In this document: positions 6,132 to 57,094 of the stretch, one piece after another | Position numbering within the stretch: position 1 is the stretch's first letter | Layout: the number at the start of each line of letters is the position of its first letter | Assembly (NCBI GenBank): GCA_034717495.1 | Contig: JAYELL010000038.1 | Coordinates: 1 to 64,000, forward strand | Length of the DNA: 64,000 nt | Source of the DNA: Chloroflexota bacterium | Lineage (GTDB): Bacteria; Chloroflexota; Anaerolineae; JAAEKA01 | Direction of reading: 5' to 3' | The notes under the pieces: generated by a model | The model's input: the letters and a program-made list of their open reading frames with translations, nothing else | Databases searched by the model: none | What the model was told of the DNA's origin: nothing | Position numbers and translations under genes: made by a program

Positions 6132-7553
6132 TTAGCTGACTTCCTGGGCCAGCAGCAGCGCGTAGCCGTTCTTGACCAGATTGCGCAATTCTACCAGGCT
6201 ACGGGTGCCGCGCAAGCGCCGCCATAGATAGCTGGGATCGGTGTAAAAGGAACGAATCGCCTTGTTCCGGTAATCCCAAAGCACATCCTTGCTCAGGTTC
6301 GCTGTTTCGACCACCGGGTAGGTTCGACCACTATCAAAGGTTTCCTCATCGGGGTCATACCAACCCTGGCTGATCAACTCCGTGCGCAGGTCGGTGCCCA
6401 CCTGGGGAATGACCGTGTTGAAGGAAGCATAGTCGCACCGTAGTTCTTTCGCGTAGTCGACAGTGCGCATGATGGACTCCCGGGTCTCGCCTGGCAGGCC
6501 CAGAATAAAGTGGCCCAGGGTGCGGATTCCCAATTCACGGCAGAGGGCGAAGACCTGGCGGGTTTCGTCCACATCCATCTTTTTGCGATAGCGTTCGAGC
6601 AGTTCAACATCCGCCGATTCTACGCCGAACTGAATGGTATGACAGCCTGCATCCCGCATGGCGGTCAACAGTTCCCGGTCGACGACGTCGATGCGACTCT
6701 CGCAGACCCAGGACAGATCCAGGTTCTGGCGGATCATGGCCTGGCACATCTCAATGGTCAACTCTTTACGGACACCAAAGGTGAAGTCCTTGAAGAGCAT
6801 CTCCTTGACGCCGATGCTGCGCAGGTGCTCGAATTCCGCCATCATGTTTTCCAGAGGCCGGTAGCGATATTTGAGTGGACTGGCGACGCAATAGGAGCAA
6901 GTCCATGGGCAGCCATCGGACTGCATCACGCTGGTCACCGGTTCCCGCCTTCCGTAGGGCATGCGGTACCGTGATAGTGGAAAGATCTCGTGGCGGGGAA
7001 CGGGGATTTCAAAGACCTTTCCCCTGGTTGCGCGCTCTCCCAGAATAACCTTGCCATTGGACTTGTAGGTAACGTTTGGTATGGGGGTGTTGCCGTCGCC
7101 GCCGTTCTGCAAATAGGTCAAAATATCGGGTGTACTGAAATCCAGCAGGATGGCGTCCAGGTAGTCTCGTTGGCTGAGAATTGGGGTGCCTTCGTATAGT
7201 AACACACCGCCGGTGCCGATTGTTCGGGCCCCGGTTCGCTGTTTGATCTCTTGAACAAAGGGCAGGTCCCGGGTCCAGGAGGCGACACCGGTCAAAAAGA
7301 TCACGGCGTGGGGATCGAAGTCCTCGATTTGGGCAAGGGCACGATCGGCAGGGATGCTTTCGACGATGGCATCCATGGCACCTACTTCGTAGTGTTCGCC
7401 AAGCATGCCGCTGAGGTAAAGCAGGTCGATGGGAGGCCAATAATAGTCGGCCTTGGAAACGGAACTGCAGTACTGGTCCCGCAAATAGAGGCGATCGCCT
7501 GGCGGATTCAATAACAGCACGCGTTCCCTGCCGCTGCCAAAGGTTCTAATCAT
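6132..7553 (-). CDS. B12-binding-domain radical SAM protein
   Basis: This 473-residue protein has an N-terminal cobalamin-binding-like Rossmann region (VLLLNPPGDRLYLRD and then FLTGVASW) followed by a radical SAM core with the CPWTCSYC iron-sulfur motif (C-x3-C-x2-C, about residue 211). Further core motifs are FKDFTFG, CHTIQFGVESAD and LGHFILGLPGET. Such proteins perform radical methylation, ring rearrangement or methylthiolation; no particular substrate is evident. The ATG at 7553 is preferred because GGAGGTGAT lies just upstream; a GTG four codons earlier is possible. It overlaps the preceding methyltransferase gene by 8 bases, so it belongs to the same operon. Confidence 0.85.
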   Translation of the reverse strand: MIRTFGSGRERVLLLNPPGDRLYLRDQYCSSVSKADYYWPPIDLLYLSGMLGEHYEVGAMDAIVESIPADRALAQIEDFDPHAVIFLTGVASWTRDLPFVQEIKQRTGARTIGTGGVLLYEGTPILSQRDYLDAILLDFSTPDILTYLQNGGDGNTPIPNVTYKSNGKVILGERATRGKVFEIPVPRHEIFPLSRYRMPYGRREPVTSVMQSDGCPWTCSYCVASPLKYRYRPLENMMAEFEHLRSIGVKEMLFKDFTFGVRKELTIEMCQAMIRQNLDLSWVCESRIDVVDRELLTAMRDAGCHTIQFGVESADVELLERYRKKMDVDETRQVFALCRELGIRTLGHFILGLPGETRESIMRTVDYAKELRCDYASFNTVIPQVGTDLRTELISQGWYDPDEETFDSGRTYPVVETANLSKDVLWDYRNKAIRSFYTDPSYLWRRLRGTRSLVELRNLVKNGYALLLAQEVS

Positions 7554-8439
7554 GATCACCTCCACAATCAGCCAGGGGTTTCTTCATTGCAATTAAAGCG
7601 TCGCCATTGTTGCTCATCAACAGGGTCAATTTCCAGCGCAAGGCCACATCGCGGCGCTGATACTGGTCGGCCAGCCAATGAGATTCGGGGATCACCTGAC
7701 GGCAAAACGCCTGTAGCTGGGCTCTGGTCATATAGGCGACGATGGTGTTGGGCGTTACCTCGAAGCTTTCGATGCGCAAGTCCATGTTGGAGGCTGTCTG
7801 CGACAGGTGATAAAGCGCATTGCAGGCCATCGGACTCTGGTTCACCTGTTCCTGGATCAGGATCAATCCGCCTGGCCTGGTCACGCGGAAAAGCTCTTCC
7901 AGCGCGTGCTGCTGGTTGTGCCTGGTCTGAGCCAGGGAGGCGCCGATCAGGTGGTGCAACACATTGCGTGCGATAACTACATCGAAGGCGCTGTCGGCGA
8001 AACCAGATGCCAGGATCGACCCCTGCACGAAGCGGACGGTCTCCGATGCCTGGTGACCTGCGTAGCGGCCCACCAGCTCAGCATTGTAGAGGGTCGCGCG
8101 TTGCCCGGCCACGTCGCCGATCATCTTGAGCTGATAGCCGCCACCGCCGCCGAATTCACAGATCGTCAACGGATATTGCTTCTGAAGAGCCTCGTGCTCC
8201 CGTTCCAGCCACCGGAAAAAAAAGGGCGTGACCAGAAAGGGCACGACGCTCTTTTCCGGCGTTGATTCAGATGTGTACAGTTCGAGTTGATCTTCGAACT
8301 GTTTGGTGACGAGCTTTTCTTCCTGGTGAAGTGGCGCTGTGCCCAAAGCTTGATGCTCCGATTGAATCTGTTCGACAGCACGAGGCCACTCCGGTGTCGT
8401 CCAGAATGACCAGGCACAAGGTGCAACGCACTCGCTCAT
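7546..8439 (-). CDS. SAM-dependent methyltransferase, start overlapping a dispersed repeat
   Basis: The body is a class I methyltransferase: ICEFGGGGGYQLKMIG is motif I, followed by FADSAFDVVIARNVLHHL and VTRPGGLILIQEQ. The reading frame continues upstream to an ATG at 8511, but the first part of that frame is encoded by a roughly 95-bp repeat also present near 28.2 kb, so the native N-terminus is uncertain. I use the ATG at 8439, which itself still lies within the repeat; the conserved protein seems to begin around LVTKQFEDQLELYTSE. The repeat may have replaced the original start region. The stop overlaps the radical SAM gene. Confidence 0.7.
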   Translation of the reverse strand: MSECVAPCAWSFWTTPEWPRAVEQIQSEHQALGTAPLHQEEKLVTKQFEDQLELYTSESTPEKSVVPFLVTPFFFRWLEREHEALQKQYPLTICEFGGGGGYQLKMIGDVAGQRATLYNAELVGRYAGHQASETVRFVQGSILASGFADSAFDVVIARNVLHHLIGASLAQTRHNQQHALEELFRVTRPGGLILIQEQVNQSPMACNALYHLSQTASNMDLRIESFEVTPNTIVAYMTRAQLQAFCRQVIPESHWLADQYQRRDVALRWKLTLLMSNNGDALIAMKKPLADCGGDHD

Positions 8440-31495: not shown

Positions 31496-31526
31496 AAAGG
31501 GAACTGGTTTTGTGCCAGTTCCCTTT
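31496..31526. terminator. Hairpin terminator between rpsT and response regulator
   Basis: A perfect 12-bp stem, aaagggaactgg paired with ccagttcccttt, encloses a 7-base loop. It lies between two convergent genes (rpsT and the response regulator). A-rich sequence on the left and TTTC on the right allow use in both directions. Confidence 0.8.
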
Positions 31527-37801: not shown

Positions 37802-38704
37802 ATGAAACTTCAGGATCTTCTCAATACCGCAGGAGCCCTGCGGTTTGGCTTGTGGTTAGGGCGCGTCATACCCCTGCGCCTTGGGTTGGCTCTATCCGAT
37901 CTGATCACAGGTTTCTTTGTGCGTCGAAGCGACTCCCCTTTGCTGAAGACGGTCAGCGGAAATCTTCGTGTCGTGCTCGGCCCTGACGTTCCGGAGGAGC
38001 AGGTTATGCGCACGACAGGAGCTGTGTTCCGCAACGCGGGCCGGATGTATTTCAACTTCTTTCATTCAGTAGGCAAAGGTACGGAGTCGGTGGTCGACCA
38101 GGTAACTTTCAGCTCACAGACCAATTATCATCTCTGGGAAAGGGCAGAGGCAGGCCAGGGAGCAGTGGTAGTTGGGGCTCATCTGGGCCCCTTTGATATG
38201 GCGGCAGTGGCCCTGTCACAAATGGATATTCCTGTCAAGGTGTTGGCCTGGGCAGATCCGACCAGAGGGTATCAAGTGCAGAACGAACTCAGGTCGATCG
38301 CCAAGGTGCAGTGGATGACCATTGGCACGAAGGCGTTGCGTGACGCCATCCGCCTGTTGCGCAATGGCGGCTTCGCTATGACGGCGGTCGATCGTCCAGT
38401 GTCGATCGACCGCGAGGAACAGCTGCTCTTTTTTGGCCGCCCAACCGGAATGCCCGTCGGCCACGTGCGTCTGGCTTTGCAGACGAACGTCCCCGTACTC
38501 GTTGTGGCCGCCGAGTATTTTCCCGACCGTAACCATGTCATGGTACACATTGTGAAACGGGTGGACATGGAGCATACCGGCGACAAGCGGGAAGATATTC
38601 GGCGCAATGCGCAGCGCATTTTAACAATCATCGAAAGCCTGATCATAGCTCGTCCCGAACAATGGATGATGTATTTCCCCGTTTGGGAGGATGTTGCTGA
38701 CTAG
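37802..38704 (+). CDS. LpxL/HtrB-family lipid acyltransferase
   Basis: This 300-residue protein has the HX4D catalytic motif in VVGAHLGPFDMAAVALSQ (about residue 124), followed by FAMTAVDRPVS and PTGMPVGHVRLALQTNVPV, as in lysophospholipid and lipid A acyltransferases (LpxL, PatA). It lies two bases after the flippase stop, so it probably acylates a lipid-linked glycan made by the same cluster. In a monoderm this would be PatA-like; the acceptor is unknown. Confidence 0.85.
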   Translation: MKLQDLLNTAGALRFGLWLGRVIPLRLGLALSDLITGFFVRRSDSPLLKTVSGNLRVVLGPDVPEEQVMRTTGAVFRNAGRMYFNFFHSVGKGTESVVDQVTFSSQTNYHLWERAEAGQGAVVVGAHLGPFDMAAVALSQMDIPVKVLAWADPTRGYQVQNELRSIAKVQWMTIGTKALRDAIRLLRNGGFAMTAVDRPVSIDREEQLLFFGRPTGMPVGHVRLALQTNVPVLVVAAEYFPDRNHVMVHIVKRVDMEHTGDKREDIRRNAQRILTIIESLIIARPEQWMMYFPVWEDVAD

Positions 38705-42991: not shown

Positions 42992-45877
42992 TCATGCCAG
43001 TTCCACCCGCACTGCGCAGACCTTGAATTCGGGAATCTTGGCCTGGGGATCGATGACCGGGTTGGTCAGGAAATTTGCCGCCGACTCTGCAAAATGAAAC
43101 GTTGCAAAGATCAGTCCTGGCTCGACCCGATCAGTTACCTGGGCTTTGGCAACTATCTCGCCTCGACGGGAGGCAACCTTCATTAAGTCACCATTGCCGA
43201 TCCGGGCATGGGCCGCATCCCTGGGATGGATCTCTACCAGGGCTTCGGGATACATAGCTTCCAGACCTCTGGCTCGATGGGTCATTTCTCCACCGTGCCA
43301 GTGATAGAGCACCCGTCCCGTTGTGAGCATGAGCGGGTACGCTTCGTCGGGAAGCTCGGCCGGTGGCAGATGGTCGGCTGCGGCAAAGTATCCCAGGCCC
43401 CGGCTGAAGGTACCGACGTGCAGGATGGGGGTCCCGGGATGGCGCCGGTCAAAGATAGGCCAGTGCAACTGTTCTCCCCCTTCCAGCCGGGCGTAGGTCA
43501 CACCGGCATAGATGGGAGTGAGGTGATTGATTTCATCCATAGCATCGGCCGGACCTGCATATTCCCAGTCCGCCCACAGGGCATCCGGATCGGGTTCGAC
43601 GGCGCCCATGGCAAGCATTCTTTTGGCAAGCTGGGTGATGATCCATGAGTCGGTCTGGGCTTCGCCCGGCGGCGAGATTGCCCGTCGAACGCGCTGAATG
43701 CGACGCTCGGTATTGGTGAAGGTTCCTTCCTTCTCGGCAAAGCTGGCCGCAGGCAATATGACGTCGGCGAATTGCCCCGTCTCCGTGAAGAAAAGGTCCT
43801 GCACGACGATGAACTCGGTCTTCTGGAGGGTATGGCGCACGTGATTCAGGTCGGGATCGCTGACCATGGGATTCTCGCCGATCACGTAGAGGCAGCGAAC
43901 CTTACCCTGCTCGGCAGCGTCCAACATCTCGGTGACGGTCAATCCGACCTTATCGTCCAGCGGCACGCCCCATGCCTGTTCAAATTTCTCCCGCACGGCT
44001 GGATCAGTCACTTTTTGATAACCAGCATGGACATTGGGCAGGCCGCCCATGTCGCAGGCACCCTGCACGTTGTTCTGGCCGCGCAAGGGGTTTACCCCGC
44101 TACCGGGCTTTCCCATGTTTCCCAACAACATCTGCAGGTTGGCGCAGCTCATAACGTTGGCTACACCCACCGTATGTTGGGTGATTCCCATGGCGTAGAG
44201 CAGTGCGCCGGGGCGATTCTCCGCCATCATGCGGGCGGCCAACTCGATGTCGGCCGCGGCTACGCCGGTGATCTCACTTGCCACTTCCGGCGAATATCTG
44301 TCGACAACCGCCTTCAGATCATCGAAGTTCTCGGTGCGGGTTTCGATGAATTCGTTGTCCTGCCAGCCTTCTCGCAGGATGACGTGCATCAACCCGTTGA
44401 GCAAGGCGATGTCGGTACCTGGTTTGTTGCGGAGGTGGAGGTCAGCATAGTTGGTGATGTCGATTCGTCGCGGGTCGGCGACGATCAGTCTGGCGCCACG
44501 GTGTCGCTGCGCGCGCCGGATCTTGCCACCGATCACCGGGTGGTTCTCCGTGGTGTTGCTGCCGATGATAAAAATGCACTGGCTATCCTCGACAATATCC
44601 TGAATGGAGTTCGTCATGGCGCCACTGCCAAAACTTGTCACCAGACCGGTGACGGTGGCGCTGTGTCAGAGACGGGCGCAGTGATCGATGCTGTTGGTTG
44701 CCAACATCTGCCGGGTGAATTTTGCGAACAGGAAATTCTCCTCGCTGGTGCATTTGGCGGAGGCCAACACTGCAAAGGCATCACCACCGTAGTCCTTTTT
44801 CTCCTGTACGAACTTCTGTGCCACCACCGCCAGTGCGGTGTCCCAATCGGTCTCGACGAGGGTCTCTGGCGGCGCGACGTCAACAGGCTGTTGCGATGGG
44901 CTGGTTTGTTCGTCGCTGCCATTTCTGCGCGTTCTGTTCCTTCCCCGCCGCAGTGTCAGAAGGTCACCGGCGATCCGCCACTCGCCGGCATCGATCTTCT
45001 CCTGTATGCCGCTGAGCCATTTCGCCCGTACCAGGGGGCGCTTCAACCGGTCCTCATGGTGGACATAATCGAAGCCGTAACGGCCCTTCACGCAAAGAGC
45101 CATTCCGTTGACCGGAGCGGCCTGGCTGCTGGTCACCCGAACAATCTGGTTGTTACGCACATTGAGGTCGAAGTTGCAGCCGACGCCACAGTAGGAGCAG
45201 GTGGTTCGAACCTTGGTCACCTGATTTGATCGGCCGGTGCCCAGGCTCATCTTGTCGGTCAGGGCGCCGACCGGACAGAATGCCACACATTGACCGCAGC
45301 TCTCACAGTTGGCATCCAGGAGGAACTGATCGGCGCCCGCCACCAGTTTTGTCTGAAAGCCCCGGTAAGCAAAGCTCAAGACATCCCGGTTTTGGATTTC
45401 GCTGCAGGCCCGGATACAGCGGCCGCAGAGAATGCACTTATTCAGGTCGATAGCGATAAAGGGATTTGGGTCCGGGTCGATGGGATAGTCGTGGGCGTCC
45501 CCGTACTTAGTTGGCCACGCCACACTGTAGTCGTAGACAAGATCCTGCAACTCGCAGTCACCGGCCACCTCACAGGTCATACATTCGTTGGGATGGTCGC
45601 TGAGCAGCATTTCGAGCACGAATTTGCGCGTTTCGATGGCCTCGGGGCTCATGGTGTCCACCACCATGCCCTCCATGGCAGGCGCCGTGCAGGCTGTCTG
45701 TAGCACCCGCGCCCCCTTCACCGACACCACACACATCCGGCACGCGCCGACATTGACGAGGTCGGGATGATGGCAGAGCGTTGGAATGTCGATACCGGCC
45801 AGGCAGGCAGCCTGGAGGATTGTGCTACCATCCGGGGTTGTTACATTTCTTTCGTTGATGATAAGGTTGACCGACAT
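42992..45877 (-). CDS. fdhA: Selenocysteine-containing NAD-dependent formate dehydrogenase, catalytic subunit
   Basis: One 962-codon gene read through an in-frame UGA at 44668-44666. N-terminal NuoG-like part: [2Fe-2S] (CHHPDLVNVGACRMC), HPNECMTCEVAGDC and two ferredoxin motifs (CILCGRCIRACSE, CESCGQCVAFCPVGAL). The molybdopterin part starts CSYCGVGCNFDLNVRN. The UGA lies between DHCARL and HSATVTGLVTSFGSGAMTN, exactly at the catalytic Cys/Sec of formate dehydrogenases (residue 404). Downstream sequence continues in the same frame with ILVIGSNTTENHP-like SQCIFIIGSNTTENHP and ends in the MopB C-terminal domain. A SECIS-like hairpin follows the UGA. An approximately 45-residue polar insertion (GRNRTRRNGSDEQTSPSQQ) precedes the Sec region. 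Likely oxidises formate or reduces CO2 using a Mo/W cofactor, with NuoF/NuoE-like partners. Confidence 0.9.
44637..44668 (-). promoter_or_regulatory. SECIS-like element: Sec UGA codon plus hairpin
   Basis: The UGA (44668-44666) is followed by 12 bases and then a perfect 6-bp stem GTCACC/GGTGAC with loop GGTCT. The loop begins 18 bases after the UGA, as does GGUC in the E. coli fdhF SECIS element. This supports SelB-dependent selenocysteine insertion. Confidence 0.85.
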
Positions 45878-51917: not shown

Positions 51918-53840
51918 ATGGAAGAAAACGCTAATCTTGCTCCGGTACTTCTGGTCGTCGCGCTGGCATTTCTGGTGCCGTTGCTGCTTTCGCGTTTCAA
52001 ACATCTGGGCATACCGGTCGTGGTGGGGGAAATCATCGCCGGCATGATTATCGGCAGCAGCGGGCTGAACCTGGTGCATGAGAGCGCCATGTTGGAGGTC
52101 CTTGCAGCGCTGGGATTCGCCTTTCTGATGTTTTTATCAGGACTGGAGATCGACTTTTCGCTGTTGCAGACCGCAAATCGTGATAGCGGCTCACCCTTCG
52201 CAAATCCGGTGGTGCCGGCGGTCATCATCCTCAGCCTGACCATTGCCATGTCCCTTGGCTTCGCTTTCGCTCTCACCGCCGCAGGTCTTGTCGAAAGCCC
52301 CTGGTTGCTGGCGCTGATCATGTCGACCACCTCGCTGGGGATCGTTTTGCCAGTGCTGAGAGAGAGGGGGCTATCGGGCGGGTTATACGGGCAAACGGTG
52401 CTTATTTCGGCCCTGGTTGCCGATTTTGTGACCATGGTCCTGATCACCGCGGTCGTGGCCCTGCTTTCGGGTGGGTTGACACTGGAAGTTCTGCTGGTCG
52501 GTGTTCTGCTGGTGGTGTTCGTCCTGGCGGCGCGCTTTGCCCCGCGGGTTACCAATTGGGAGCCGATACGCCGGGGCATTGACGAGATGGCTCACGCCAC
52601 GGTACAGATCAAGGTACGGGGAGCATTGGCCGTCATGTTTACCTTCGTGGTGCTGTCCGACGTGCTGGGTGCGGAAGTGATCCTGGGTGCGTTTTTGGCC
52701 GGTGCCTTTCTGGCGCTCGTCTCAGGCCCGGATGACCCCGGTGATTGGGAGGTAAAACATAAACTCGACGCAATCGGATTCGGCTTTCTCATCCCCGTTT
52801 TTTTTATCATGGTTGGTGTGCGCTTCGATCTGCCGGCATTGCTCTCCTCTGCCTCTGCTCTGGTCCTCTTCCCGATATTGCTGCTGATTGCTTACCTGGT
52901 GAAGGTTGTGCCCTCCATGATACTGCGCCGTCATTATTCAACGCGGCAATCGGTTGCAGCCGGGTTTCTTCTGTCGTCACGGCTGTCTCTGATCATCGCT
53001 GCATCGGCTATCGGGTTACGACTTGGCCTTATCAGCGACGCCATCAACGCTGATATCGTTCTGGTGGCGATCGTCACCTCGACCCTGTCTCCCGCGATAT
53101 TCAGCCGATTGATACCTGATTCAGAGGATGATGTCGGATTGGTCAAACCAACCTTCATCGTGGGTGCCGGCCGTGCAGGTGTGTTGTTGGGCCAGGCGTT
53201 GTCGCGCCATGGTGATCCCGTCATCTATGTTGACCACAACGAAACTCGATTGCGGCGTGCGCGACAGGCAGGGTTTGAGGCTGTACTGGCTGATGCTACC
53301 CAGGCATCAGAGTTAGCTCGGGTTGGGATTGAAAACGCCCGGGCCCTGGTGGTTGCAACCAGCGATGATGACTTCAACCTGAAAGTCAGTCAGATTGCCA
53401 GGAACACCTTTGGCTGCGAACACATTATCTCCTATCTGCAGGATACCACGAGGCTTCGGGAATTCGAGGCAGCCGGTGTGCGGGTCGTGAATCCAGTTTT
53501 GGCCAGCGCATCCATGATGGAGTCACTGGTTCGCTTTCCCGATGCCTATTTCCTGTTAACGGCTATGGATGATGACAAGGATGTTGTGGAGATCGAGCTA
53601 CGCAATCCGAGGTGTGACGGCATTATGATCCGTGACATGAGATTGCCGGGCGATGTGCTGGTGCTGGCAATTCGGCGCCGCGGAGAGCTGTTCGTGCCCC
53701 ACGGTGATAATCGCCTGATGAACGGCGATCACGTCACGCTGCTGGGCACTGGTGAAGCGGTGGAAGAGGCCGTTCACTTGCTGCAACAGAGTTCAGATGG
53801 CGCCGGCAGAAGTGCAACGAGTGACCCGGGTGCGCATTGA
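51918..53840 (+). CDS. CPA2 cation:proton antiporter with RCK domain
   Basis: This 640-residue protein has a 12-13 segment Na+/H+ exchanger domain (1-395: GIPVVVGEIIAGMIIGSSGL, FLMFLSGLEIDF), an RCK-N Rossmann domain (about 411-530: FIVGAGRAGVLLGQALSRHG with DATQASELARVGIENARALV) and an RCK-C domain (about 555-630). It belongs to the KefB/YbaL-type CPA2 group, moving K+ or Na+ against H+, with nucleotide control at the RCK domain. It is the last gene before a regulatory region for a Fur-type regulator. Confidence 0.9.
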   Translation: MEENANLAPVLLVVALAFLVPLLLSRFKHLGIPVVVGEIIAGMIIGSSGLNLVHESAMLEVLAALGFAFLMFLSGLEIDFSLLQTANRDSGSPFANPVVPAVIILSLTIAMSLGFAFALTAAGLVESPWLLALIMSTTSLGIVLPVLRERGLSGGLYGQTVLISALVADFVTMVLITAVVALLSGGLTLEVLLVGVLLVVFVLAARFAPRVTNWEPIRRGIDEMAHATVQIKVRGALAVMFTFVVLSDVLGAEVILGAFLAGAFLALVSGPDDPGDWEVKHKLDAIGFGFLIPVFFIMVGVRFDLPALLSSASALVLFPILLLIAYLVKVVPSMILRRHYSTRQSVAAGFLLSSRLSLIIAASAIGLRLGLISDAINADIVLVAIVTSTLSPAIFSRLIPDSEDDVGLVKPTFIVGAGRAGVLLGQALSRHGDPVIYVDHNETRLRRARQAGFEAVLADATQASELARVGIENARALVVATSDDDFNLKVSQIARNTFGCEHIISYLQDTTRLREFEAAGVRVVNPVLASASMMESLVRFPDAYFLLTAMDDDKDVVEIELRNPRCDGIMIRDMRLPGDVLVLAIRRRGELFVPHGDNRLMNGDHVTLLGTGEAVEEAVHLLQQSSDGAGRSATSDPGAH

Positions 53841-53886
53841 GTTGAAACAGATTTACGCCTGAGCGGTGCAGCCTGGCAGAAGCGAT

Positions 53887-53915
53887 TTGCCAGGGCAAGA
53901 GGTTTGTATTATAAT
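53887..53915 (+). promoter_or_regulatory. Promoter of the Fur-family gene
   Basis: TTGCCA (53887-53892) and TATAAT (53910-53915) are spaced by 17 bp. A 7-bp hairpin (cctggca/tgccagg, 53872-53894) overlaps the -35 and may end the antiporter transcript. Confidence 0.75.
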
Positions 53916-53917
53916 TC

Positions 53918-53945
53918 GTGCAGATGCAATAATATGCATCTGCAC
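53918..53945. promoter_or_regulatory. Perfect 11-bp inverted repeat, probable metalloregulator operator
   Basis: GTGCAGATGCA-N6-TGCATCTGCAC is a perfect palindrome that starts two bases after the -10 and covers the expected transcription start. Its core, TGCA-ataata-TGCA, and its place directly before a Fur-family gene and CbiMQO suggest a self-regulated metal-responsive operator. Confidence 0.75.
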
Positions 53946-53978
53946 TTTCGTTTTTTATCGACCATCGGTGAAACCACT

Positions 53979-54419
53979 ATGTCCTGTCTCGAACCTGTAA
54001 TCGATCAATTGAGAGTCTCCGGCCACCGCCTGACGCCGCAGCGCGTTATGGTTCTCGATGCCATCTACCACGCGGGTGGTCATCTTACCACCGATGAGGT
54101 CTATGAGCGGGTGCAGACACATTCCCGATATGTCGATCGAACCACCATCTATCGCACCCTACAGTTTCTGAAGCAGAACGGCCTGATCGGTGAGTTTCGA
54201 CTGGACGGCCAGCCGGTGCGATATGAAGCGATACGCTCCGGTGAGGAACACCATCATGCCGTGTGCGACGAGTGCGGGCAGGTGAGCGACATCGAACCAA
54301 ATGTCCTGGAGGGATTGGCCGAAAAACTGCGAGAGGATTACGGTTTCCACGCCAGGCTCAGTCACATCACCATCCATGGTCTCTGCAGGACATGCGCAGC
54401 CAAAAAGCAGCGCTCTTGA
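53979..54419 (+). CDS. Fur-family metalloregulator (Zur/Nur/PerR-type undecided)
   Basis: This 146-residue protein has an N-terminal winged helix (GHRLTPQRVMVLDAIYHAGG and RTTIYRTLQFLKQNGLI), then the metal-binding SGEEHHHAVCDECGQVSDIE and a final CRTCAAKK, giving the two CxxC structural zinc pairs. Context with CbiMQO favours a nickel, cobalt or zinc sensor. ATG at 53979 places the palindromic operator upstream of the gene; a longer frame from 53904 would run through the promoter and is rejected. Confidence 0.9.
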   Translation: MSCLEPVIDQLRVSGHRLTPQRVMVLDAIYHAGGHLTTDEVYERVQTHSRYVDRTTIYRTLQFLKQNGLIGEFRLDGQPVRYEAIRSGEEHHHAVCDECGQVSDIEPNVLEGLAEKLREDYGFHARLSHITIHGLCRTCAAKKQRS

Positions 54420-54472
54420 TATTGCCTTTTCTAAATGATGTCAAATTGTGAAGACTCCTCGGAGGTGTCGAA

Positions 54473-55441
54473 ATGCTCTTCAGCAGTTACTCAGGTCCCT
54501 TGCCTAAGCCAGAAGCTTTGCACATTCCGGATGGTTTCCTCTCCGCCCCGGTGGCCGTTCTGGCCTGGTTGATTTCGGTTGCCTTCATCGTTGTGGCGGT
54601 GCGCATAAGCAGCCGCACACTGGATGAGCGGCAGGTACCCATGATGGGTGTGTTGGCCGCTTTTATTTTCGCAGCTCAGGCCTTCAACTTCCCCGTGGCG
54701 GGGGGTACCTCAGGCCACATGTTGGGCGGTGCGCTGGTAGCCATCCTGCTGGGCCCGTGGCCAGGGCTGTTGGTCATGACAGCGGTGATTGCGTTGCAGG
54801 CTCTGATTTTCCAGGATGGGGGCTTGCTGGCAATGGGCGCCAATATCCTCATCATGGGTATTCTAACCGTGTGGGTGGGCTATTTTACCTATCGCCTGCT
54901 GTCCCGGTTCAATGGTTATCTGGCTGCCTTTCTGGCAGGATGGCTTAGCGTGGAGGTTGCTGCCATAGTGACGGCCGCGCTGCTGGCGCTGAGTGGTACA
55001 TCGGCGCTGGCTGTGGTGTTGCCGGCAATGGCTGGCGTGCATGCTTTTATTGGAATCGGCGAAGGGCTGATTACTGCCGCTGCGCTGGCCCTGGTCCAGA
55101 AGGCGCTGCCCGGTTTCTTCGACCACCGGTCATCCGGCGGTCGAACTGACACCGCCACCCTGTTTGCTGGCGGTGTCGTGCTGACGCTCATTGTGGGTAT
55201 TCTGGCCGTGTTCTTTGCCTCGGGTAGCCCCGATGGGCTGGAATGGGTTGCCGAAGACCTGGGCTTCCTGGGGGCAGCGCAGGAGTCCCCTTTCCAGATC
55301 GCACCTGATTATGCTGTTCCAGGGATTTCCAGCGATATAGCTGCCAATCTCCTTGCGGTGGGTATTGGCATTCTGTTGCTATTTGCCGTTGGTTACACGG
55401 TTGCGCGATCGCTGCGCCGACGGCAGACGCAATCGGCGTAG
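54473..55441 (+). CDS. cbiM: Cobalt/nickel ECF transporter substrate component CbiM fused to PDGLE domain
   Basis: This protein of 322 residues has HIPDGFLSAPVAVLAW, AAQAFNFPVAGGTSGHMLGG and GVHAFIGIGEGLITAAALAL, the hallmarks of CbiM/NikM, followed by a CbiN/PDGLE domain (SPDGLEWVAEDLGFL, about 250-322). CbiM needs a free N-terminal Met-His for metal binding. Here GGAGG seven bases before the ATG at 54473 supports a start that adds 15 residues ahead of LHIPDG, whose Leu codon is TTG (54518) and could itself be the start. Follows the Fur gene by 53 bp. Confidence 0.9.
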   Translation: MLFSSYSGPLPKPEALHIPDGFLSAPVAVLAWLISVAFIVVAVRISSRTLDERQVPMMGVLAAFIFAAQAFNFPVAGGTSGHMLGGALVAILLGPWPGLLVMTAVIALQALIFQDGGLLAMGANILIMGILTVWVGYFTYRLLSRFNGYLAAFLAGWLSVEVAAIVTAALLALSGTSALAVVLPAMAGVHAFIGIGEGLITAAALALVQKALPGFFDHRSSGGRTDTATLFAGGVVLTLIVGILAVFFASGSPDGLEWVAEDLGFLGAAQESPFQIAPDYAVPGISSDIAANLLAVGIGILLLFAVGYTVARSLRRRQTQSA

Positions 55442-55464: not shown

Positions 55465-56274
55465 GTGCACATTCACATCCTCGACCAGCATATTGAGACC
55501 AATAGCATCGTTCACCGGCTTGACCCACGGGTCAAGCTTGTATCGGCGCTGGTTTTTATCCTCGCTTGCGCACTGACTCCAGATGGCGCGTGGTTGGCGT
55601 TTGCTGCACTGGGGGTGCTGTTGTTGGTTCTCATAATCATTTCCGACCTATCCATAATGACCCTGATGAAGCGCAGCATTGTTGCGCTTCCCTTTGCCCT
55701 GGCGGCTGTCACCGTGATGTTTACGATTCCGGGCGAAACCCTGGCGACGATTCCTCTGCCTTTTTCTGCGGGCAAGTATCAGCTTAGCATCAGCGACGCC
55801 GGACTGGTGCGTTTTGTGACGATCATGCTGAAGAGTTGGCTTTCTGTACTGATGGCATTATTGCTATCGGCGACCACCACCTTTCCGGATATCCTGCGAG
55901 CGATGCGGGGAATCGGCGTCCCCCGAGTCCTGGTATCGGTGATCGCCTTTATGTATCGCTACATCTTCGTGCTTGGGGATGAAGCGTTACGCCTGATGCG
56001 AGCCAGGGAGGCGAGAACGGCGACTGGATCAGATGGTCGCCGCAGCGGTGGCAATATCATCTGGCGGGCAAAGGTGGTTGGTGGCATGGCTGGTAGCCTT
56101 TTCGTGCGATCCCTCAGTCGCAGCGAGCGGGTATACCAGGCGATGGTGAGTCGCGGCTATACAGGTGAGATGCTCTGGTTGGAGAAGCCCCGGCTCCAGG
56201 GTTGGCATCTGGCAGTGGGAGGTCTTTTCATTGCCATTCTGGCCGCCATCGAAGCGCTGGCCTGGCTTTCGTGA
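55465..56274 (+). CDS. cbiQ: Cobalt/nickel ECF transporter transmembrane protein CbiQ
   Basis: This 269-residue membrane protein has the EcfT/CbiQ layout: SIVHRLDPRVKLVSALVF, four to five hydrophobic segments, the coupling motifs MRARTAR-like RAREARTATGS and SLSRSERVYQAMVSRGYTGE. It transmits ATP hydrolysis by CbiO to CbiM. The start is GTG at 55465, which gives M-HIHILDQ. It follows cbiM after 23 bp. Confidence 0.9.
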   Translation: MHIHILDQHIETNSIVHRLDPRVKLVSALVFILACALTPDGAWLAFAALGVLLLVLIIISDLSIMTLMKRSIVALPFALAAVTVMFTIPGETLATIPLPFSAGKYQLSISDAGLVRFVTIMLKSWLSVLMALLLSATTTFPDILRAMRGIGVPRVLVSVIAFMYRYIFVLGDEALRLMRAREARTATGSDGRRSGGNIIWRAKVVGGMAGSLFVRSLSRSERVYQAMVSRGYTGEMLWLEKPRLQGWHLAVGGLFIAILAAIEALAWLS

Positions 56275-56362: not shown

Positions 56363-57094
56363 ATGACCAGTATCAACGGACATGAACCGGTCTTGCACGT
56401 TCATGATCTTTTCTACACCTATCCCGATGGCAGGAAGGCGCTGTACGGCGTAACCCTGCATGTGGACTATGGGGAGAAGGTGGCGCTTGTCGGGCCCAAT
56501 GGTGCCGGCAAATCCACCCTGATGCTGCACTTCAACGGCATCCTCAAAGGCAAAAACGGGGTCGTTCGTGTTGATGGTATGGACCTGAAAAAAGAAAACC
56601 TGGGACAGATCAGGTCCCAGGTCGGACTTGTGTTTCAAAATCCAGACGACCAGTTGTTTTCCACTTCGGTCTTCGAAGATGTAGCTTTCGGGCCGCTGCA
56701 CATGGGCTTGCAAGAGTCTGAGGTGCGTCGTCGTGTGCAAATGGCCCTGGATCAGGTGGGCATTCCCGAATTTGCGCCACGTATGCCTCATCATCTTAGC
56801 GTGGGCGAACGAAAGCGGGTAGCCATTGCCACGGTCCTGGCCATGGAACCGAAAATCCTGGTCCTTGACGAACCGACAGCCGGCCTGGATCCGCGCAGCC
56901 GGCGTAGCCTGATCAACCTGTTGCGCGAACTGGATGCCACGATGCTGGTGAGTACGCACGATATGCGTTTGGTGGATGAGCTTTTCGAACGCACGATCGT
57001 ACTCGATGGAGGACGTGTGGTAGCGGACGGGCCGACTGGCGAGATCATGGCAGACGTGTCCCTGCTTGAGAACCATGGGCTGGAAGCGCCATAA
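56363..57094 (+). CDS. cbiO: Cobalt/nickel ECF transporter ATPase CbiO
   Basis: This ATPase has Walker A VGPNGAGKSTLMLHFNG, QVGLVFQNPDDQLFS, the signature HHLSVGERKRVAIATVLA and Walker B ILVLDEPTAGLDP. LSVGERKR in place of LSGGQ is typical of a CbiO subgroup. It completes the CbiMQO set. The start could be ATG at 56363 or GTG at 56339; neither has a good ribosome site. The cluster is probably controlled by the upstream Fur-family operator. Confidence 0.85.
   Translation: MTSINGHEPVLHVHDLFYTYPDGRKALYGVTLHVDYGEKVALVGPNGAGKSTLMLHFNGILKGKNGVVRVDGMDLKKENLGQIRSQVGLVFQNPDDQLFSTSVFEDVAFGPLHMGLQESEVRRRVQMALDQVGIPEFAPRMPHHLSVGERKRVAIATVLAMEPKILVLDEPTAGLDPRSRRSLINLLRELDATMLVSTHDMRLVDELFERTIVLDGGRVVADGPTGEIMADVSLLENHGLEAP

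Follow-up and report, generated by a model that had tools for sequence, protein, structure and literature searches.

The perfect palindrome at positions 53918-53945 of the window, by which we mean the whole 64-kb stretch of DNA that was analysed, is very probably the operator of an autoregulated Nur-like repressor, as judged from sequence comparison across the class. With somewhat less confidence, we consider it likely that this metal-loaded, Nur-type repressor controls the operon FUR-CbiM-CbiQ-CbiO, in which its own gene comes first, and that nickel is the metal concerned. The promoter, the palindrome and the genes of the operon are arranged as follows.

53887..53892, + strand: -35 hexamer TTGCCA (consensus scan)
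53910..53915, + strand: -10 hexamer TATAAT after a 17-bp spacer (consensus scan)
53918-53945, no strand: predicted operator palindrome, 11-6-11, spanning the predicted start site
53924..53939, no strand: inner core ATGCA-N6-TGCAT, corresponding to the TTGCAA-N4-TTGCAA box with 8/10 core letters
53946..53956, + strand: T-rich tract TTTCGTTTTTT after the palindrome (terminator-like scan, fold)
53979..54419, + strand: FUR-family regulator, 146 aa, Nur-like (Pfam FUR, PDB match 3eyy, trees)
54473..55441, + strand: CbiM/NikM S component with a C-terminal PDGLE domain (Pfam CbiM 209.3 bits, PDGLE 48.1 bits)
55465..56274, + strand: CbiQ T component (Pfam CbiQ; NCBIfam TIGR02454 159.4 bits, cut-off 111.8)
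56363..57094, + strand: CbiO ATPase (Pfam ABC_tran; NCBIfam TIGR01166 225.5 bits, cut-off 211.8)

The palindrome is made of the arms GTGCAGATGCA (53918-53928) and TGCATCTGCAC (53935-53945), exact reverse complements of 11 bp each, around the centre ATAATA (53929-53934), and the sequence thereby confirms the perfect symmetry, 11-bp arms and 6-bp centre reported in the initial annotation. Four perfect inverted repeats with arms no shorter than 11 and loops no longer than 10 occur in the window, at three distinct places, while 10 shuffles gave a single one in one shuffle and none in the other nine; further repeats of this kind lie at 31496-31526 and 38384-38413 and are probably terminators. The pair TTGCCA-17-TATAAT, with 11 of 12 consensus matches, is the sole promoter-like site in 53600-54600 (0.5 expected by shuffling). 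Because this promoter ends at 53915, the palindrome covers the predicted start, which would fall at about 53921-53923, within the palindrome, and the consensus scan agrees in this respect with the earlier placement of the palindrome over the start of the promoter. The half-sites of the palindrome, at 0, 6, 16 and 22, correspond to the symmetric form of a box with outer half-sites that recurs in relatives. The 8/10 letters of the window core are by themselves within chance (shuffle p 0.083); the strength of the window site rests on its perfect symmetry and its family context.

Upstream of the palindrome, an antiporter-TrkA gene identified by Pfam ends at 53840, and the first gene downstream encodes a regulator with the FUR-family fold (PF01475, 93.4 bits vs a cut-off of 23.1). 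The start of CbiM required a choice between two codons. In 59 CbiM-type sequences the codon before HIPDGFL is ATG in 39, TTG in 5 and a leucine codon that is not a start (CTG, CTT or CTC) in 15, and for this reason TTG 54518 (MHIPDGFL) was dropped and ATG 54473 retained as the start. CbiM, here (54473-54520) and in relatives, carries a short N-terminal extension ahead of HIPDGFL. A free Met-His N-terminus probably binds the metal, and with such an extension the protein would need trimming to expose it.

Searches for orthologues of the regulator succeeded in 55 of 60 relatives (1e-8) and in 152 of 396 genomes from the class (1e-24), and the better-scoring part of these orthologues, the window included, gave 97 non-duplicate regulator loci. 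In each locus the box was scored by the 10 letters of TTGCA-N6-TGCAA over the 150 nt preceding FUR. At least 9/10 letters were present in 42 of the 97 loci (100 shuffles: mean 1.08, maximum 5), with all 10 letters in 22 (shuffle mean 0.04). The orthologues linked to CbiM had the box at 9/10 or better in 33 of 52 cases (shuffles: mean 0.56, maximum 2) and the perfect box in 18 (shuffle mean 0.03), while the corresponding counts for orthologues with no recognised partner were 2 of 30 (shuffle mean 0.36) and 0 of 30. This conservation, along with the trees discussed below, backs the original proposal that a FUR-family operator controls FUR-CbiMQO, the control itself being predicted. In its extended form the motif reads TTGCAA-N4-TTGCAA, weakly flanked by TTA...TAA. 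When spacers of 0 to 10 were scanned at 10/12 letters, the peak was at N4 (54 of 97 loci), and the other spacers from 1 to 9 were each found in 0 to 6 of the 97, N5 in 6. Side peaks at spacer 0 (20/97) and spacer 10 (27/97) result from additional half-sites lying 6 bp beyond the core. In a set of 43 boxes, outer half-sites matching 4/6 letters or better were seen at -6 (10 boxes) and +6 (7 boxes), compared with 0 to 3 at the nearest other offsets, and this arrangement suggests, by analogy with other FUR proteins, that overlapping dimers may occupy boxes with outer half-sites.

Departures from the common arrangement were also observed. A TTGCAA-N5-TTGCAA-like site, at 10 to 11 of 12 letters, replaces the N4 box in L021, L043 and L052. 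The prediction that operons beginning with CooC would carry the box before CooC failed at the CooC-CooC-FUR clusters L189-L191, where no N4 box was found; two of the FUR genes of these clusters, L021 and L043, have an N5 box at 10/12. In L192 (4406-5627), a gene for a histidine-rich cation efflux (CDF) protein is divergent from the FUR gene, and the box occupies the region between the two.

The sequence of the box, its conservation, its position before the operon head and its gene neighbourhoods are read directly from the genomes. Clusters ordered CbiM-CbiQ-CbiO-FUR have the box ahead of CbiM in two of three cases (L180 with 10/10, L181 with 9/10) and lack it in the third, L182; the box tracks the operon promoter rather than the FUR gene. 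A search with the perfect box that made no use of the regulator matched 125 of 396 genomes, compared with approximately 38 for a reversed control (counted by hand). Among the 30 perfect-box loci returned, eight had the box before CbiM (L149, L150, L153, L154, L155) or before FUR-CbiM (L167, L173, L174) and one before a ZnuA-like gene (L168), and the remainder are chance matches or other operators. Palindromes of the form TTGCAAGCG[CT]TTGCAA mimic the box and swell such searches (L156, L161, L162 and genomes of family f46). These hits, which have a CG centre, adjoin proteins with a LacI-like start, taken by us to be LacI-like, and were excluded from the motif count.

Within the 5.0-Mb assembly to which the window belongs, the 26-mer TGCAGATGCA-N6-TGCATCTGCA, with up to 3 mismatches allowed, has a single occurrence (control 0). 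The core TGCA-N6-TGCA alone is found at 48 places vs 18 in the control and is hence not specific, and the relaxed core WTGCA-N6-TGCAW is found at 14 places (control 4). When the open frames surrounding these 14 places were read, a metal gene was found behind none but the window's, and a wider regulon in this genome was rejected on that ground. With one palindrome per 5.0 Mb and no further metal gene, the circuit seems local and limited to one operon. The genome search proposed in the initial annotation was divided in its outcome: the genome itself has no second copy near a metal gene, a result that had been named in advance as refuting the proposal, and in related genomes the motif does precede metal genes.

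The kinship of the regulator points to Nur. Its best PDB match is 3eyy, the Nur of S. coelicolor (3.7e-21), with Fur 9ire close behind (2.1e-20). Nur is nested within the clade of these regulators in a tree of 118 rows (99/97), and in a tree of 55 rows Nur (3eyy) and all box-bearing regulators lie on one side of a branch supported at 99/95.6, with Fur, PerR and the genome's own Zur outside; an alternative tree that places Nur with the other known subfamilies was left unrejected by the AU test (p 0.119). At the Ni-site positions of Nur, which we take to be H70, H72 and H126, the window regulator has E72, R74 and H129, and His at both of the first two positions occurs in none of 97 orthologues. 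At the M-site, presumably H33, H86, H88 and H90 in Nur, it has H35, E89, H91 and H93, that is, three of the four histidines, with E89 for H86. According to one report, the geometry of the Nur Ni-site may be a crystal artefact (PMC7055735). Assigning the metal from the sensor residues was abandoned, as the site is alike whichever genes adjoin and nickel is there indistinguishable from other metals. The core had been described as unlike the Fur box and somewhat like that of Nur; the probable kinship with Nur over Fur or Zur agrees with this description and the spacing does not, the spacer being 4 here and 5 in the published box. That box had also been quoted as TTGCA-N5-TTGCAA, and its published sequence is tTGCaa-N5-ttGCAA, 6-5-6 (PMC3919588).

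Several lines of evidence concern the identity of the metal. In a PDB comparison with the CbiM query beginning at TTG 54518, T. tengcongensis 4m58, presumably NikM2, was matched at 2e-29 and the cobalt CbiM of R. capsulatus, 5x3x, at 1.1e-11; the PDGLE domain is fused to CbiM. ATPases resembling CooC stand beside 10 of the 97 regulators, where Pfam gives the CbiA/MinD family only and the CooC assignment is by reading. The genome has its own Ni-CODH (616.9 bits, cut-off 478), on the same contig and 81 kb from the operator, and in G021 a CODH gene lies about 6 kb from the regulator, again on the same contig. Across the 396 genomes of the class, CODH is present in 94 of 152 genomes with the regulator (E at most 1e-24) vs 63 of 244 without it, an odds ratio of 4.7 that is uncorrected for kinship; G002, G003 and G004, members of the same family with a box or near-box, gave no CODH match. 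From these comparisons, nickel appears more likely than cobalt. The nickel/cobalt circuit envisaged at the outset is upheld in part: nickel fits the NikM-like S component, the CooC and CODH neighbours and the genome's own CODH, and the sequence leaves nickel and cobalt undistinguished. The B12-binding radical SAM gene at 6135-7565, which had been offered as support, adds nothing, with a B12 domain at 23.8 bits vs the Pfam cut-off of 32.1.

A cobalt circuit, in which the same operator and repressor would serve to sense and import cobalt for corrinoid enzymes, is unlikely. It draws on the cobalt annotation borne by the CbiM, CbiQ and CbiO families and on the cobalt names of the nearest NCBIfam CbiM models, which scored below cut-off, as well as on the genome's own CODH locus (L179), which seems to encode corrinoid protein subunits too, the subunit names being our assumption. 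In a survey of such transporters, the CbiMNQO/NikMNQO systems of seven Chloroflexi comprise three assigned to cobalt, three unassigned and none assigned to nickel (PMC2667541). However, CbiM resembles 4m58 more closely than it does the cobalt protein of R. capsulatus, relatives have CooC-like neighbours, and no separate CbiN gene, described as cobalt-specific in the same survey (PMC2667541), was seen in the operon. The window also has no cobalamin riboswitch; control by a riboswitch was rejected altogether, with 0 matches in the window to cobalamin or any other Rfam family.

Less probable again, and indeed improbable, is a zinc circuit, with the regulator as another zinc sensor and CbiMQO as a zinc importer. 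The regulator has a ZnuA-like neighbour in 7 of 97 loci, namely in L019, L036, L044, L051, L081 and L102 and in a seventh, L113, which has both types of neighbour, and in a group at genus level (L094, L102, L113) closely related regulators stand beside either CbiMQO or ZnuA. Conversely, the single ZnuA of the genome sits with a different FUR paralogue, so that the regulator is not its Zur; where two ZnuA genes are present, as in G054, the one adjacent to the regulator scores lower (230.5 vs 283.9 bits); and the CooC neighbours likewise speak against zinc. In 30 ZnuA loci, where gene starts were roughly placed, a box of at least 9/10 letters was found in none and several had TGAAAA-TTTTCA palindromes instead. 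An identity with Zur was rejected on the separate paralogue and the empty ZnuA loci.

That the palindrome is no operator at all and acts instead in the RNA, as an intrinsic terminator for the antiporter gene upstream or as a leader hairpin, is highly improbable: although its 11-bp stem followed by TTTCGTTTTTT scored as terminator-like and its RNA folds at -19.3 kcal/mol (z -6.25), 42 orthologous boxes have no comparable T run after them and most give only short stems, and the box, whose distance to promoters and to FUR genes is fixed, shifts to before CbiM under a changed gene order. A reading as terminator only was rejected because the pattern of stem and T tract is a property of the window, the T run being unconserved after the relatives' boxes; a double role as operator and terminator could still be accommodated.

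Two observations on possible selenoproteins were made in passing. On the - strand of the window, a frame for a molybdopterin oxidoreductase of formate dehydrogenase type (42995-45877) has as its sole interruption an in-frame TGA at 44666-44668, in the context CARL*HSATVTGLVTSFGSGAMTN, as expected for a selenocysteine codon. Among the relatives' matches to PF00374 (e.g. L138-L145), several NiFe hydrogenase large subunits have one or two in-frame TGA codons, and this suggests that those subunits may contain one or two selenocysteines.

For the operator of a Nur-like repressor, we infer binding, repression, stoichiometry and metal along the following lines. When the metal is plentiful, a metal-loaded dimer of the FUR-family protein would bind the two inner TGCA half-sites over the start, perhaps as two or three overlapping dimers given that two more half-sites lie 6 bp outside these, and the bound regulator would block RNA polymerase and silence FUR-CbiM-CbiQ-CbiO, the operon to which its own gene belongs. 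Under metal shortage, the dimer would be released and the ECF uptake transporter made. The regulator would be of Nur type, with nickel, needed here for CODH, as the most likely metal. More tentatively, and with rather less than even confidence, a Nur-type family may extend across the class, a large group of which few members have been cultivated. Its operator would be 16 bp long (6-4-6), in many cases with a further half-site at a distance of 6 bp, and through it the family would run a nickel economy (ECF import, CODH maturation through CooC and, in certain members, a ZnuA-type importer recruited for nickel) without the Ni-site usually regarded as defining Nur. If this is true, a Nur-like repressor with a box and a sensor unlike those of the Streptomyces model sets the supply of nickel to CODH in the class, the family offers a testable case of how a FUR protein chooses its metal and its DNA spacing, and the motif can be used to annotate metal genes in the genomes of unculturable bacteria. 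Full-text searches, which covered mainly freely available papers, listed no Nur-type regulon with CbiMNQO in Chloroflexi, a weak indication that none has been described; a Chloroflexi collection is included in RegPrecise (PMC3840689).

Three known systems can be set beside this circuit. The NikR repressors are of the ribbon-helix-helix class, whereas the regulator here belongs to FUR (Pfam PF01475). What the two have in common is an ECF transporter of nickel type controlled by a local metal repressor, as described for nikMNQO (PMC2667541). Zur shares the FUR family and a metal uptake operon, and differs in that znuA has a FUR paralogue of its own in this genome and that ZnuA loci are without this box. 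The closest parallel is the Nur of S. coelicolor, which is alike in its FUR fold, its tree grouping, its TTGCAA half-sites, a box that overlaps the promoter and a nickel-type importer as target, nickel being predicted here. In contrast, the spacer of its published box is 5 and that of the window and the class is 4, its H70, H72 and H86 are replaced by E72, R74 and E89 in the window regulator, and its targets are nikABCDE and sodF, where we predict an autoregulated local operon with an ECF transporter. On account of the 4-bp spacer, the loss of two of the three Ni-site histidines and the AU test (p 0.119), the regulator is not filed as Nur, though the system would work like Nur.
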